From positions 407,001 to 471,000 of the forward strand of contig NZ_SBJL01000001.1 of NCBI RefSeq assembly GCF_004634425.1: a stretch of DNA of 64,000 bases. Direction: 5' to 3'. The stretch's first letter is position 1. Every line of letters starts with the position of its first letter. A model generated the notes under the pieces. It made no database searches. It was not told the origin of the DNA and saw nothing but the letters and a program-made list of their open reading frames with translations. A program made the translations under genes and the position numbers. This document shows positions 46,152 through 50,429 of the stretch, piece by piece. The stretch is from Vitreimonas flagellata (lineage in GTDB: Bacteria > Pseudomonadota > Alphaproteobacteria > Caulobacterales > Aquidulcibacteraceae).

Positions 46152-46227
46152 GCCGCCTTAGCTCAGTTGGTAGAGCACCGGTTTGTGGAGCCGGGTGTCG
46201 CTGGTTCAAGCCCAGCAGGCGGTACCA
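46152..46227 (+). tRNA. tRNA-His (GTG), without encoded G-1
   Basis: The 76-base cloverleaf has acceptor GCCGCCT/AGGCGGT (with a G1-U72 wobble), D arm GCTC/GAGC, anticodon stem CCGGT/GCCGG with loop TTGTGGA (anticodon GTG), and T arm GCTGG-TTCAAGC-CCAGC. Discriminator base 73 is A, and CCA is encoded. The base before G1 is T, so the G-1 typical of most tRNA-His genes is absent. Confidence 0.95.
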
Positions 46228-46262: not shown

Positions 46263-47261
46263 GTGTCGATCGAGCCCCCGTTTTTGGTAGATTATCGTAG
46301 TGCTCAAGCGCGCTATGCGGCGCGTGCTGCGGCCGCTTGCGGATTTGAGTTCCGTTCTCTTGATGGCGCGGACGGCTATCTTTTCGAGGTCAGCGACGGG
46401 GAGCGGCGTGCGCAATTCGCAGCCGGCGCGGGAACGCCCTATGCGCTGAACGACACTCGCGCGGCCTCGATCGCGCGGGACAAGGCGTTTTCGGCCGAGG
46501 TGCTGCGTGGGGCTGGCGTGCCTGTGCTGGCGGGCGAGAAATTTTTCGTGACGTCGCGTTGGGCCGACATGCGCAATCCTGGACGCGAACCGGCAGATGC
46601 CTTGGACTATGTACGGCGCGCTGCGCTTCCCGTGTTTTGTAAACCGCTGGCGGCGTCGAACGGGCTCTACGCTGAAGTCATCGAGAGCGTCGAGGTGTTC
46701 GAAGACTACGTGCAGCGTGTGTCGCGCGAACATTTCGCAGTGCTGATCCAGCCCTATGTGCGCGGTGTTGAGTATCGCGTGTTCGTACTCGAAGGGCGTG
46801 CGCTCTTCTCTTATCGCAAACATTTACCCAGTGTTGTCGGCGACGGGCGATTGAGTGTTGCGGAGCTCGTCGCGACGCTTCCGCGCGACGCCGGCGCACC
46901 TGTCCCGAAAATTCGCGCAAGAGATGCATCAGGCCATCTGATCAGCACCGATTCAGTGCCGGCAAACGGTGCGAGCGTGACGCTGGAAGGTCCGGCCAAT
47001 CGCGCAGCCGGCGGGGGTGCGGCTGGCGTACGCGATGGTGCGCCCGAAGCGATGGCGCGTTTAGCGCTTGCGGCGGCGGATGCGGTGGGATTGCGGCTTG
47101 CGGCGGTCGATATGTTCGACGTGTCGGCCAACGGTGATGGCTCCGATCTTGTCGTGATCGAGGTCAATTCGAATCCGATGATCGCGACGCTCGAAGACGT
47201 GGAGCGCTGGGATCTGATCATCGAGATATGGAAAGCGAATTTCGCGACGGCGCTGCAATGA
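46263..47261 (+). CDS. CphA-like ATP-grasp ligase
   Basis: This 332-residue ATP-grasp enzyme would join a carboxylate to an amine using ATP via an acyl phosphate. The ATP-grasp features match the cyanophycin synthetase/GshAB group: ALNDTRAASIARDKAF, LPVFCKPLAASNGLYAEV, IQPYVRGVEYRVFVLEG, LPSVVGDGRLSVAEL and SVPANGASVTLEGPANRAAG, ending VVIEVNSNPMI. It starts at GTG 46263, just after tRNA-His, and overlaps the FolC-like gene by four bases. No substrate is predictable. It is not full CphA, as it lacks the Mur-ligase half. Confidence 0.85.
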   Translation: MSIEPPFLVDYRSAQARYAARAAAACGFEFRSLDGADGYLFEVSDGERRAQFAAGAGTPYALNDTRAASIARDKAFSAEVLRGAGVPVLAGEKFFVTSRWADMRNPGREPADALDYVRRAALPVFCKPLAASNGLYAEVIESVEVFEDYVQRVSREHFAVLIQPYVRGVEYRVFVLEGRALFSYRKHLPSVVGDGRLSVAELVATLPRDAGAPVPKIRARDASGHLISTDSVPANGASVTLEGPANRAAGGGAAGVRDGAPEAMARLALAAADAVGLRLAAVDMFDVSANGDGSDLVVIEVNSNPMIATLEDVERWDLIIEIWKANFATALQ

Positions 47262-48466
47262 ATATCTGGCGCGTGCCTTATCCCAAATTCGGCGCCGGGC
47301 CGGGGTTGGAACGCGTGAAGAGAATTGCCGCGCAGCTTGGTGTCGACTTGGCTGGGTTCGGTGCGCAGGGCGCGGTGATTGTCGGCTCGAACGGCAAGGG
47401 CTCGACGGCGGCGATGTGCGCACCCCTGCTACAAGGGGTGAGTGCGCCGGTAGGGCTCTTCACCTCGCCCCATCTCTTTGCTCTGAACGAGCGGTTTCGT
47501 ATCGATGGCGAGGACATAACCGACGCCGAATTGGATCATCATTGGCGGCGTGTCGTTGAAGCCGCAGCGATCACGGGCGAAAGCGACAAACTTGGCGGCT
47601 TTGAGTTTCTGTTTCTGATCGCGGCGGATTGGTTCGCGGCGCGGGGCTGTGTGCACACAATATGGGAAGCGGGGATCGGCGGGCGGCTCGATCCGGTGCG
47701 CCTGATCGAAGCGCGACGCCTTGCGCTTACCTCGCTCGATCTGGAGCACACGCAGCTCTTGGGTGAGACGCGCGCGGAGATCGCACGCGACAAGCTTGAT
47801 GCAGCACCAAGCGGCGCTGGTGTATTCGTCAGCGACAGTTGCGCGAACGAGCATGCGAGTATCGAAGCGCACTGCGCCGAACGACGCGTTTCAGTCAAAT
47901 GGGTGAACGCAAGCGACCTGGAGGCGCCGCTATCAGGTACGCACCAACGTCAAAATCTAGCGCTCGCATTGGCGCTCGCGCGCGACCTACACGCGATCAG
48001 CGATAAACAAGCGCGTGCTGCACTGTTCAAGACGCGCTGGCCCGGTCGGTTGGAGATCATCAACGATGATCCGCTGACCGTGATCGATGTCGGCCATACG
48101 CCCGATGGCGTTCGCGCCGCCCGCGAGGGCTTTCTAGCGATGGCGGCGCCTGCCGTACTCGTGTGCGGCGCGTCGCATGACAAAAACGCGGACCAGATCG
48201 TCGCTGCGCTCGCGCCCGGCTTCTCCACAATTATCTGTGCCGCCGCGCGCCACAAAGGCGCTGCCGCCGCCCAGATCGCGGCTTGCGCCCAGGCGGCGAA
48301 CCGGCAAGCCGAAACAATCATAGCGGAATCCGTGGCCGACGCCCGCCAATTGGCGTTTTCGAAGGCGCTTGGGCGGTCGATTTTCGTCGCCGGCGGGCTT
48401 TTTCTGGCGGCGGAGTTCAGGGCGATCCACCTTGGGCGCGATCCGGCGAGCTTGGCCTTCTTTTGA
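47258..48466 (+). CDS. FolC-like Mur ligase family protein
   Basis: This 402-residue Mur-ligase-fold enzyme resembles folylpolyglutamate synthase. Seen are the P-loop VIVGSNGKGSTAAM, GLFTSPHLFALNERFRI, WEAGIGGRLDPV, SLDLEHTQLLGETRAEIARDK, GTHQRQNLALALAL, RWPGRLEII and VIDVGHTPDG (family DGAHNP). It is shorter than typical FolC (about 430-450). Co-translation with an ATP-grasp enzyme suggests an amide-forming role on another substrate. A true FolC may exist elsewhere in the genome. ATG 47258 overlaps the upstream TGA. Confidence 0.85.
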   Translation: MNIWRVPYPKFGAGPGLERVKRIAAQLGVDLAGFGAQGAVIVGSNGKGSTAAMCAPLLQGVSAPVGLFTSPHLFALNERFRIDGEDITDAELDHHWRRVVEAAAITGESDKLGGFEFLFLIAADWFAARGCVHTIWEAGIGGRLDPVRLIEARRLALTSLDLEHTQLLGETRAEIARDKLDAAPSGAGVFVSDSCANEHASIEAHCAERRVSVKWVNASDLEAPLSGTHQRQNLALALALARDLHAISDKQARAALFKTRWPGRLEIINDDPLTVIDVGHTPDGVRAAREGFLAMAAPAVLVCGASHDKNADQIVAALAPGFSTIICAAARHKGAAAAQIAACAQAANRQAETIIAESVADARQLAFSKALGRSIFVAGGLFLAAEFRAIHLGRDPASLAFF

Positions 48467-48502: not shown

Positions 48503-49735
48503 ATGCCCAAGACGCTGTTCGAGCACCTATCGCCCGACACCGGGGCTAAACGCATTCTGTCGCTCGACGGCGGCGGCGTGAAGGGCGTGTTGACGCTCGG
48601 CATGCTGAAGCCGTTGGAGGACGAATTGCGTCGCCGCGCCGGTGACGATCCGGCGTTTCGTCTCTGCGATTATTACGATCTGATCGGCGGCACCTCGACG
48701 GGCGCGATTATCGCCTCGGGTTTGTCGCTGGGCCTCAGCATCGATGAGATGATCGAGCTTTATATGAAGCTCGGCCCCGACGTGTTCGGCAAGACAGCGG
48801 GCGACGGCGTTTTTCTGCAATCGAAATTCGAATCCAAAAAGCTTCGCCGCGCGCTGCAATCGGTGCTCTCAACTAAGACGCTTGGCTCGCAAGACATTCG
48901 AACGGGGCTCGCGATCCACGCCAAGCGCATTGATACGGGTTCGGCCTGGGTCGTCACCAATCACCCGCTCGGAGTGTTTTACGATCCGCCAGCGGAGAGC
49001 GGCATATTCCCGAACAAGCGCTATCGCTTGGCGGACCTTGTGCTCGCGAGCGCCGCTGCGCCGACTTTCTTCGACGAAATCACCATCGATGTGGAGTTCG
49101 ACGAGAAGCGCCGGCCAATCCAGAAGGGTTTCTTCGTCGACGGCGCGGTGAGTGCGAACAACAATCCGAGCCTGCAGCTTTTCATGCTGGCGCTGGAACC
49201 TTCCTATAAGTTTGGTTGGAAGTCCGGCGCCGACAATCTGATGATGACATCTTGCGGAACCGGTATGCGCCGACCGACGGTGGACGGCAAAGCGTTTCAG
49301 GGCCTGCCGCCGGGACTACGCGGCGTTCATGCACTACGGGCGATGGTTTATGATACGCAGGTGCAAGGCGTCATGCTGATGCAGGCGTTCTCGAACCCGC
49401 GCAAACCGTGGCGCATCAATTCCGAGATCGGCGACATGAACGGCGTCTGCATCACAGGCGAGCCGCTGCTCGATTATCAGCGCATGGACGTCATGCTTGA
49501 AGTGAAGCCGCGCGCTAAGAAGCGCAGCGACCCGGCGCCGCCGATGACACAGCTTGAGCGCATGCTCGGGCGCGAACTCGACGCCATCACGCTTGAAGGG
49601 CTTGACCTGATGGACAACGGCAAGAAGGCCAACATGGAGCTCTTGCTTGAGGTGGGTATCGCAGCAGGCAAAACCTATGTGGATGCGACCTATCCCGATC
49701 CGAGGTTCGATCTCGCCGAATGGCGCGCGAGCTAA
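48503..49735 (+). CDS. Patatin-like phospholipase
   Basis: This 410-residue lipase has the patatin catalytic set: glycine-rich oxyanion loop ILSLDGGGVKGVL, nucleophile elbow GGTSTGAI (Gly-x-Ser-x-Gly), and the catalytic Asp in FVDGAVSANNNP. It would hydrolyse phospholipids or acyl esters. The fold and motifs resemble CapV-type effectors of CBASS immune systems, but no CD-NTase gene is near. The start is ATG 48503, with GAGGGG before it; ATG 48491 is an alternative. The RyR-like gene follows by 34 bp. Confidence 0.88.
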   Translation: MPKTLFEHLSPDTGAKRILSLDGGGVKGVLTLGMLKPLEDELRRRAGDDPAFRLCDYYDLIGGTSTGAIIASGLSLGLSIDEMIELYMKLGPDVFGKTAGDGVFLQSKFESKKLRRALQSVLSTKTLGSQDIRTGLAIHAKRIDTGSAWVVTNHPLGVFYDPPAESGIFPNKRYRLADLVLASAAAPTFFDEITIDVEFDEKRRPIQKGFFVDGAVSANNNPSLQLFMLALEPSYKFGWKSGADNLMMTSCGTGMRRPTVDGKAFQGLPPGLRGVHALRAMVYDTQVQGVMLMQAFSNPRKPWRINSEIGDMNGVCITGEPLLDYQRMDVMLEVKPRAKKRSDPAPPMTQLERMLGRELDAITLEGLDLMDNGKKANMELLLEVGIAAGKTYVDATYPDPRFDLAEWRAS

Positions 49736-49769: not shown

Positions 49770-50429
49770 ATGGCCGCGCTTAAGAAAAAGCAAACCACTA
49801 AAGCCGATCCGCGCATGGATGCGGCGGTCGATTATTTCGCTGGTCGCTCACACGATGCGTGGCGCAAACAACTTTTGAAAACCAACCCCGAGCAGAAGGG
49901 CCAGCCGCGCATGCGCATGCGCGGAGGGATTATGGTTGATATCAATCAACCATGGTCGAAGCTGCACCCGAATGCCAAGGCTGATAACAAGATCGCCGCG
50001 CGCGATGCGTACGCCGCCGTGATGAGATTCCCGAACGACCGCGAAGCCGCGTCGATCGAAGTGCACAAGGCATGGATCGCGCGCAATAAGCACGACAAGA
50101 GCTTGGATAAGGCATTGTTCAAGCCGTACGCGAAGCTGTCCGAGGTCGAGAAGGACAAGGACCGCGCGCACGTCGACAACATGAAGAAGGCGATCGCCGC
50201 GACGCGGAAGAGCGCCAAGGTTGTGGCGCCGCGCAAGGCCAAGGCGCCGGCGTTCAAGACGGTGCGCATCGAAGCGAAGCATTGGGCCAAGCTCGAAGCC
50301 GCCGCCGCGAAGCTCTCCAAACTCACGGGTCGCACTGTCGCTCCTGAAGCGCTTTTGAGCGCCGGCCTCGAAGCCATCGTCGCCGTGAGCGGCGCGGTCG
50401 CCGCTGAGGCGAAACCGAAAAAGCGCTAA
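49770..50429 (+). CDS. RyR-domain-like protein with C-terminal ribbon-helix-helix-like segment
   Basis: This basic 219-residue protein contains an RyR-like block: SIEVHKAWIARNKHDKSL followed by FKPYAKLSEVEKDKDRAHV (about residues 94-132). These match the IHExW...LxPYxxLxxxEKxxDR pattern of bacterial RyR domains. An upstream SHDAWRKQLL (about residue 27) may be part of the same unit. After a Lys/Ala linker, FKTVRIEAKHWAKLEAA and PEALLSAGLEAIVA (about residues 164-205) follow a strand-helix-helix pattern like ribbon-helix-helix. RyR domains are proposed nucleotide sensors. The role here is inferred from its position behind a patatin lipase gene. Confidence 0.65.
   Translation: MAALKKKQTTKADPRMDAAVDYFAGRSHDAWRKQLLKTNPEQKGQPRMRMRGGIMVDINQPWSKLHPNAKADNKIAARDAYAAVMRFPNDREAASIEVHKAWIARNKHDKSLDKALFKPYAKLSEVEKDKDRAHVDNMKKAIAATRKSAKVVAPRKAKAPAFKTVRIEAKHWAKLEAAAAKLSKLTGRTVAPEALLSAGLEAIVAVSGAVAAEAKPKKR

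Follow-up and report, generated by a model that had tools for sequence, protein, structure and literature searches.

The principal outcome of the current analysis is that a pair of overlapping genes in Vitreimonas flagellata probably represents a real and conserved biosynthetic module of two ligases, one of which belongs to a family of Mur-fold enzymes that forms a clade of its own, the sister group of all FolC proteins that we sampled. The window, by which we mean the whole stretch of 64,000 nucleotides that was analysed (G000:C1:407001-471000, from a genome of 3.9 Mb), encodes on its forward strand a predicted ATP-grasp carboxylate-amine ligase of 332 residues (46263..47261), of the group that comprises the G domain of cyanophycin synthetase (CphA) and the ATP-grasp of GshAB, and a Mur-fold ligase of 402 residues (47258..48466). 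We favor, with somewhat better than even confidence, the reading that the two gene products would join two amide bonds into a small peptide or pseudopeptide. The kinds of enzyme involved are already known; the family of the Mur ligase, the companionship between the two proteins and the exchange of partners are unexpected. No published description of an ATP-grasp/Mur pair of this type was found among the listed titles and first parts of abstracts, in a search that covered few subscription journals.

The two ORFs, their ATGA overlap and the length of the Mur ligase had been reported in a first-pass annotation of this DNA, with which the coordinates and the sequence agree. At the gene junction (...GCGCTGCAATGAATATCTGG...) the TGA stop codon of the ATP-grasp gene (47259-47261) overlaps the ATG of the Mur gene (47258-47260), and translational coupling, if it takes place, is likely to do so at the four shared bases (47258..47261, + strand). 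For the ATP-grasp gene the GTG start is putative, and the matches to relatives begin mostly from about residue 10-13 rather than from the GTG at 46263; a tRNA-His gene (46152-46227) lies just upstream. A 4-base overlap, either ATGA or GTGA, exists in 18 of the 22 same-genus loci that carry both genes, the locus of the window included, and in three of the other four, from draft or metagenome assemblies, the ATP-grasp frame is broken; in the remaining one the Mur start is displaced 11 bp downstream. The retention of this overlap and the dN/dS values of 0.14-0.20 obtained in seven pairwise comparisons with relatives imply that the pair is more than a coincidence of chance ORFs. Those relatives that carry names, at three loci, are metagenome-assembled Hyphomonadaceae or Caulobacterales.

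Both genes were first searched for in 41 genomes. Of 299 genomes in an order-level sample, 41 gave a match to the ATP-grasp (E<=1e-20) and 44 a match to the Mur ligase (E<=1e-80), with all of the 41 contained within the 44, and the aligned ends of the two genes lie no more than 100 bp apart in 39 of these 41 genomes. The two exceptions are G108, where the aligned parts are separated by 517 bp on one contig, and G155, where the genes are unlinked and on different contigs. The Mur ligase occurs in 27 of the 30 genomes of the window's genus in this sample (it is absent from G013, G291 and G017, assemblies that are 79%, 57% and 99% complete, respectively) and in five further families. In another genus, that of genome G870, the Mur ligase was found in 25 of 98 genomes and the pair-type ATP-grasp in the same 25; ATP-grasp scores of at least 297 bits were reached in 24 of these 25 and in none of the other 73, and in the twenty-fifth (G1056) the ATP-grasp is a contig-end fragment beside the Mur gene. 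Adjacency was seen in 19 of the 20 loci examined in that genus, the exception being G1030. Because the genomes are related to each other, such counts are not independent and overstate the number of independent events; taken at the level of sequence, they indicate that the two genes are inherited together. The first-pass annotation had made its proposal depend on linkage in relatives, which was thus observed across the order sample and the G870 genus alike.

Beyond the order, the ATP-grasp was matched in 14 of 385 genomes of a class-level sample, the window's included (E<=1e-12). The pair is carried by G338, G420 and G523; G302, G364, G403, G543 and G379 have an ATP-grasp and lack the Mur ligase, the Mur matches of G456 and G599 are at the FolC level only, and the Mur follow-up left out G376, G377 and G464. 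Cyanophycin synthetases are encoded by G376 and G599. The ATP-grasps of G302, G364 and G403 fall within the pair group of the ATP-grasp tree in genomes that lack the Mur ligase, from which it follows that an ATP-grasp of the pair group can exist without a Mur partner. In a phylum-level sample the pair-type Mur ligase was present in four of 398 genomes, the window's included, all of them from the window's class. No pair-type member was recognised in a plasmid collection, where two Rhizobium plasmids carry a distant ATP-grasp, and two viral contigs bear FolC-like genes with scores of 196-211 bits, below the range of the pair. Weak Mur matches in G005, G011, G012, G016 and G022 were set aside as stretches that resemble each other and lack the Mur P-loop; the five loci fetched from these genomes gave no match to the pair-type or MurX profiles (MurX being a further FolC-like ligase, treated below).

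The Mur ligase of the window would, by its general features, be taken for a FolC. It scores 230.7 bits against the NCBIfam folC model TIGR01499, above the cut-off of 162.65, as compared with 41.3 bits for murE (TIGR01085, C-terminal half of the protein) and 19.3 bits for cyanophycin synthetase; it matches the Pfam Mur_ligase_C model and does not reach that for Mur_ligase_M. Its predicted structure (pLDDT 92.7) is best aligned by VIA-align with E. coli FolC (1w78; Z 44.1, rmsd 2.3 over 377 residues), and its closest solved folds are all FolC, the lowest of these at Z 32.8, followed by cyanophycin synthetase at 27.9. In fold and in family profile score the protein thus agrees with FolC. Scores on a profile of the pair-type Mur proteins, on the other hand, are at least 366 bits for full-length members and start at 302 bits for shortened ones, as against a maximum of 259-261 bits for FolC and 280 bits for an archaeal FolP-FolC, and this gap separates two sets of proteins.

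The same separation was obtained in two maximum-likelihood trees, in both of which 22 pair-type Mur proteins constitute one clade (UFBoot 98, SH-aLRT 93) that is unbroken in 98% of the bootstrap trees of the first and 96% of those of the second. The first tree set the pair-type proteins against 33 FolC rows from Pseudomonadota, and the second against 24 FolC rows that included E. coli, Bacillota, Actinomycetota, Thermomicrobiota, Deinococcota and one archaeal FolP-FolC; the rows were chosen by us for spread. The outgroup of eight rows represented MurE (L001 and L002 being overlapping pieces of a single MurE gene), MurC, a MurC-like ligase and three cyanophycin synthetases that exceed the cut-offs for that family, and was without MurD and MurF. 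In both trees the Mur ligase of the window falls outside the FolC clade, and in neither does it group with the M domains of CphA. A recent duplication of folC as the origin of the Mur ligase was ruled out by both trees.

An ordinary FolC exists elsewhere in the same genome. A search with the Mur ligase yielded one other match, a FolC-like gene at G000:C4:381579-382802, which is adjoined on the same strand by accD (aligned parts about 185 bp apart), and a separate FolC was found in all 12 of the Mur-bearing genomes among 19 examined, with a partial match in G201. The first-pass annotation had anticipated that the window carries a second, specialised gene and had named as decisive against this the finding of a sole folC that clusters with canonical FolC; the ordinary FolC beside accD and the separate Mur clade bear out its expectation. 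Its description of the gene as a second FolC copy holds for the gene count but not for the phylogeny, and its label "FolC-like", correct as regards the fold, is not to be taken to denote a folate enzyme. It is exceedingly improbable, in our estimation, that the gene specifies a redundant FolC isozyme beside an unrelated neighbor: the TIGR01499 score would agree with such an isozyme, but the separate clade in two trees, the residue switches considered next and the strict co-occurrence with the ATP-grasp are all at odds with it.

Residues of the 22 pair-type Mur members were compared with those of 40 FolC sequences. The catalytic and metal-site residues of FolC are present: the equivalents of E. 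coli FolC K60, S83, E146, H173, K188, R289, D302 and H305 are invariant in all 22 members, and that of N257 is kept in 21. In the window protein the P-loop GSNGKGS occupies residues 43-49 (47384..47404, + strand), and K179 (47792..47794, + strand) aligns with E. coli K188, presumably the carbamylated lysine. The residues of the dihydropteroate and glutamate sites of FolC are, however, not retained among the 22 members. The position of T122, which we take from annotation of the E. coli FolC structure to be part of the dihydropteroate site, is G in 19 members and T in none; N157 is replaced by R, D172 by E, and N306 by T or S in all 22, and S403 by G in 21. By our alignment S403 corresponds to Ser473 of the M. 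tuberculosis folylpolyglutamate synthase (FPGS), which the available text of a modelling study places, with two valines, around a hypothetical hole for the gamma-carboxylate of glutamate (PMC10861534). The Mur ligase would probably bind its amine substrate in a manner unlike that in which FolC holds glutamate. The switches argue for changed substrates without naming them, since mono- and bifunctional FolC are separated by no motif in the accessible portion of a folate survey (PMC1971073).

These residues also bear on the suggestion that the pair modifies folates or another pterin, with the Mur ligase as a specialised enzyme of the folylpolyglutamate type and the ATP-grasp adding a differently linked residue to the tail. 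The sister relationship to FolC and the exclusively FolC-like solved folds would suit such a role, as would the situation in genome G420, where accD-folC is immediately followed by the pair in the same orientation; the pair there adjoins a thioredoxin gene, relatives of which come after folC in the window's genome and in G017 too. This arrangement is the only hint of a folate link; among the loci examined an ordinary folC stands beside the pair in G420 only (the G523 contig being too short to tell). Between 19 and 22 of the 22 members, however, have other residues at the positions of T122, N157, N306 and S403, and S403 corresponds to the serine that was modelled as holding glutamate in the M. 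tuberculosis enzyme, so that we regard the modification of folates or pterins as unlikely.

The ATP-grasp protein finds its best NCBIfam matches in cyanophycin synthetase (88 bits) and GshAB (55.5 bits), both far under the respective cut-offs, and it covers the former profile only at positions 208-448 of 871, which is the region of the G domain. Its nearest solved relatives by sequence profile are likewise cyanophycin synthetases and GshAB, and by fold CphA1, LysX and ArgX come out equal to within 1 Z (VIA-align of a predicted model with pLDDT 90.1). Fold and metal/ATP residues place it in the ATP-grasp superfamily. In an alignment of 20 rows K74, K127, R172, N246 and D283 are kept throughout and E300 in 19, with D in the other. 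By our own reading of the profile alignment these six match K220, K261, R309, N394, D431 and E450 of TeCphA1, for which residue roles in the G domain are given in the available text of PMC9427784; R172 (46776..46778, + strand), the counterpart of the catalytic Arg309, is among those that are invariant. The ATP, metal and Arg309 residues of the cyanophycin synthetase G domain being present, the ATP-grasp should form an acyl phosphate and from it an amide. Other G-domain positions have diverged. His267 of TeCphA1 is not kept in the alignment (N in the window's genus; R, H, K, G or L elsewhere), and the position of Arg458, described in the same available text as a contact to the aspartate alpha-carboxylate, is not conserved in the family, being A308 in the window protein, R in two of three members from the Caulobacterales family f2 and in all of the f174 pair members shown, and other residues elsewhere. 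Aspartate as a substrate is thus not implied.

The first-pass annotation had drawn an analogy with cyanophycin synthetase, which fits the ATP-grasp by its G-domain catalytic residues but not the Mur half, sister to FolC, nor the lack of an N domain. A split system of this kind that makes a polymer would account for the presence of the same two folds as in CphA and for the closeness by sequence of the ATP-grasp to the CphA1 G domain and GshAB; we nevertheless judge it highly improbable, considering that the Mur half does not belong with the M domains of three confirmed cyanophycin synthetases, that neither protein of the pair includes the N domain and that the Arg458-aligned position varies.

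As a two-ligase module, the pair might act as follows. The ATP-grasp would use ATP to convert a carboxylate to an acyl phosphate, to be captured by an amine; the Mur ligase would then activate the carboxylate of the ATP-grasp product in the same manner, within its FolC-type cleft, and join it to a second amino-acid-like amine, such that the end product would be a small amide-linked peptide or pseudopeptide. Both active sites look intact, and both enzymes would act toward one product; gene order suggests that the ATP-grasp acts first. The outline of a two-step amide pathway, as put forward in the first-pass annotation, is supported by the linkage, co-occurrence and replacement of partners, the latter two of which fit a joint pathway of amide-bond formation, but its Mur half is to be reassigned to the sister clade of FolC. 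The overlapping genes and their strict co-occurrence could also be expected of a single complex that forms one bond, with one protein as a substrate-binding or regulatory partner. We find such a complex decidedly unlikely, as the catalytic sites of both proteins appear intact and under constraint, and as the foreign-type ATP-grasp of G1030, which seems to be a stand-in, is harder to accommodate in a tight complex.

The evidence for replacement of partners comes from genomes in which the Mur ligase is without its usual neighbor. Three genomes of the order sample, G021 and G208 from the window's genus and G237 from family f2, have the Mur ligase and no ATP-grasp match, and in each of these a further FolC-like ligase of 400 to about 440 residues, MurX, lies beside the Mur gene. 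In G021 and G208 it is divergently oriented, whereas in G237 it immediately precedes the Mur gene and overlaps it by 13 bases. Its scores of 96-115 bits on the Mur profile indicate that MurX is not of the same family as the pair-type Mur ligase. Among the 12 Mur-bearing genomes examined for it, MurX was seen only in G021. In alignments MurX retains the P-loop as well as the catalytic lysine positions and loses several ATP-site residues of the C-terminal domain; these losses make its activity less sure, and it may be no working ligase. In G1030 the Mur gene occupies the slot that is usual for its genus without an ATP-grasp there, and an ATP-grasp on another contig groups with those of family f2 (99/97). 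An overlap of this gene with PEP carboxylase was judged accidental, because the family match does not begin until residue 87 of the frame as called. The unlinked ATP-grasp of G155 groups on a long branch away from those of its own family. The unlinked ATP-grasps of G155 and G1030 could be unrelated to the Mur ligase and present by chance.

A different form of replacement is suggested by the G870 genus, in which 25 other genomes have a solo ATP-grasp (114-155 bits). Four of these proteins, when put in the tree, formed a clade different from that of the pair ATP-grasps, which rules out that they are diverged copies of the latter; they keep the catalytic residues. At all ten loci examined the solo gene occupies the slot of the pair, divergent from the same oxidoreductase gene, and in none of the 98 genomes of the genus do pair-type and solo ATP-grasps occur together (E<=1e-30; chance 0.0002 if independent). 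We read the one chromosomal slot as harboring alternative versions of one capability, and it may alternatively be a common insertion site without a common function.

Altogether, where its own ATP-grasp is missing, the companion step of the Mur ligase seems to be exchangeable for MurX or a foreign-type ATP-grasp. Possibly, though we would expect it to fail somewhat more readily than to hold, there exists an undescribed alphaproteobacterial pathway for a new small amide-linked metabolite, built around a constant FolC-sister ligase with interchangeable and unrelated companion ligases: the ATP-grasp, a second FolC-like ligase or, encoded at another place in the genome, an ATP-grasp of foreign type. 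On the same reading, in one genus a single ATP-grasp of another subfamily replaces the whole pair in the same slot.

The genes that surround the pair are less instructive. Downstream of the Mur ligase in the window are a patatin-like gene (48503-49732), whose product matches CBASS-type effector profiles and is below the NCBIfam cut-off, and a RyR-like gene (49770-50426), whose product had no match among solved structures. They are part of a block (M48, ATP-grasp, Mur, patatin, RyR-like, ThiO-like, acyl-CoA dehydrogenase, transglycosylase) that constitutes vertical synteny within family f1, with parts missing in some members, and for this reason a defence-linked cluster of the patatin and RyR-like genes with the pair was rejected. 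Surroundings so largely conserved hold little information on the role of the pair. The f1 neighbors are absent from the 20-kb surroundings of the loci of other families, and no single neighbor gene family accompanies the pair from one family to the next in a rough ORF clustering that included antisense frames, some clusters being found in two.

Patatin-like phospholipase genes do recur near these loci, a feature that the two-ligase reading leaves unexplained. They lie near the Mur gene in all five f2 loci examined (touching it in L095, L096 and L214, about 1 to 4 kb off in L094 and L118) and near six of ten solo ATP-grasps; with three queries, each representing one subfamily, none was detected in the f4, f45 and f127 loci or in three f174 pair loci. 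The patatins comprise three subfamilies that are barely alike (best pairwise E 7e-5), and their recurrence may be coincidental, patatins being common genes.

Pair-type Mur ligases are likely to have been annotated as folate enzymes, given that the one in the window exceeds the NCBIfam folC subfamily cut-off, an assignment that is contradicted by their clade and by their residues. A real module would point to an undescribed peptide-like metabolite in the window's genus and in the five further families, and the replacement of partners would constitute a natural case of a pathway step exchanged between unrelated enzyme folds. There is precedent for the exchange of ligase folds in the operons of other systems, where, in the available text of PMC2922099, other peptide ligases swap for each other, but those systems are different from the ATP-grasp/Mur pair.

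Among the known enzymes, MurE resembles the Mur ligase of the window in an HTPD-like motif of the C-terminal domain, presumably a MurE motif, and differs from it in the N-terminal half and by a distant placement in the trees. The ATP-grasp domain of GshAB and GshF, together with RimK, LysX and ArgX, shares its fold and order of motifs with the ATP-grasp of the window, yet these relatives are distant (about 13-24% identity in structural alignments), and no glutamate-cysteine ligase domain like that of GshAB/GshF is fused to the window protein. Cyanophycin synthetase CphA1, the two reactions of which are treated in the available text of PMC9262961, is alike in that it combines an ATP-grasp and a Mur-type ligase and in the catalytic residues of its G domain, but it unites its N, G and M domains in one chain where the pair consists of two proteins of 332 and 402 residues, its M domain is on a different branch from the Mur ligase and its Arg458 position is variable across the ATP-grasp family. 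FolC/FPGS, as represented by the E. coli (1w78) and M. tuberculosis (2vor) enzymes, has the whole fold in common with the Mur ligase, as well as the P-loop, the metal-site residues and the positions of the carbamyl-lysine, R289 and D302; the Mur ligase nevertheless stands in its separate clade with T122, N157, D172, N306 and S403 switched and, unlike FolC/FPGS, it is accompanied by an ATP-grasp or by MurX.

In one comparison, the ATP-grasp ligase (46263-47261) and the FolC-sister Mur ligase (47258-48466) of the pair have diverged more than the genes that surround them. Between the window and the close relative represented by locus L075, neighbouring genes are 93-98% identical, whereas identity is 87% and 77% for the ATP-grasp (aligned in two pieces) and 78% for the Mur ligase. 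This lower identity suggests that the pair either is evolving faster than its neighbours or has been exchanged.

The pair could be imagined to compensate for a change in the ordinary FolC of the window's genome (L006, G000:C4:381579-382802), which has Lys at the position of E. coli FolC Ser83, a metal-site residue. This does not appear to be the case, since two of the four FolC rows with Lys (L006, L119, L161 and L170, among 40 rows) come from the genomes G013 and G017, which lack the pair. In genome G420, the pair lies directly downstream of accD-folC and on the same strand (L111:7881-12540).

The pair's slot in the ten loci of this kind examined in the G870 genus (L224-L233) is filled by a solo ATP-grasp of a different clade, located ~6-7 kb into each locus, and catalytic residues are kept in all ten. 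MurX, a further FolC-like ligase family (L105:6350-7678, L213:6126-7376 and L214:3513-4715), was seen among the loci examined only beside the Mur ligase and in genomes without the ATP-grasp. FolC-like genes also occur on two viral contigs (L234 and L235; 196-211 bits with the pair profile), and Rhizobium plasmid NZ_CP117269.1 (L191) carries a stand-alone ATP-grasp annotated as "cyanophycin synthetase", although its 1,050 bp are much too few to encode such an enzyme.

In each of the five loci examined from f2, another Caulobacterales family, a patatin-like gene is located close to the Mur gene (L094:13463-14542, L095:6740-7834, L096:7554-8681, L118:15263-16348 and L214:6005-7090). Patatin-like genes are also found near six of the ten solo ATP-grasps (L224, L225, L226, L228, L229 and L233); together these genes constitute two subfamilies beyond that of the window. 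Downstream of the window's pair, the gene of a patatin-like phospholipase (48503-49732) is followed by that of a protein that weakly matches the RyR domain (49770-50426), and the relatives of both genes are syntenic only in family f1; the phospholipase resembles CBASS effectors.
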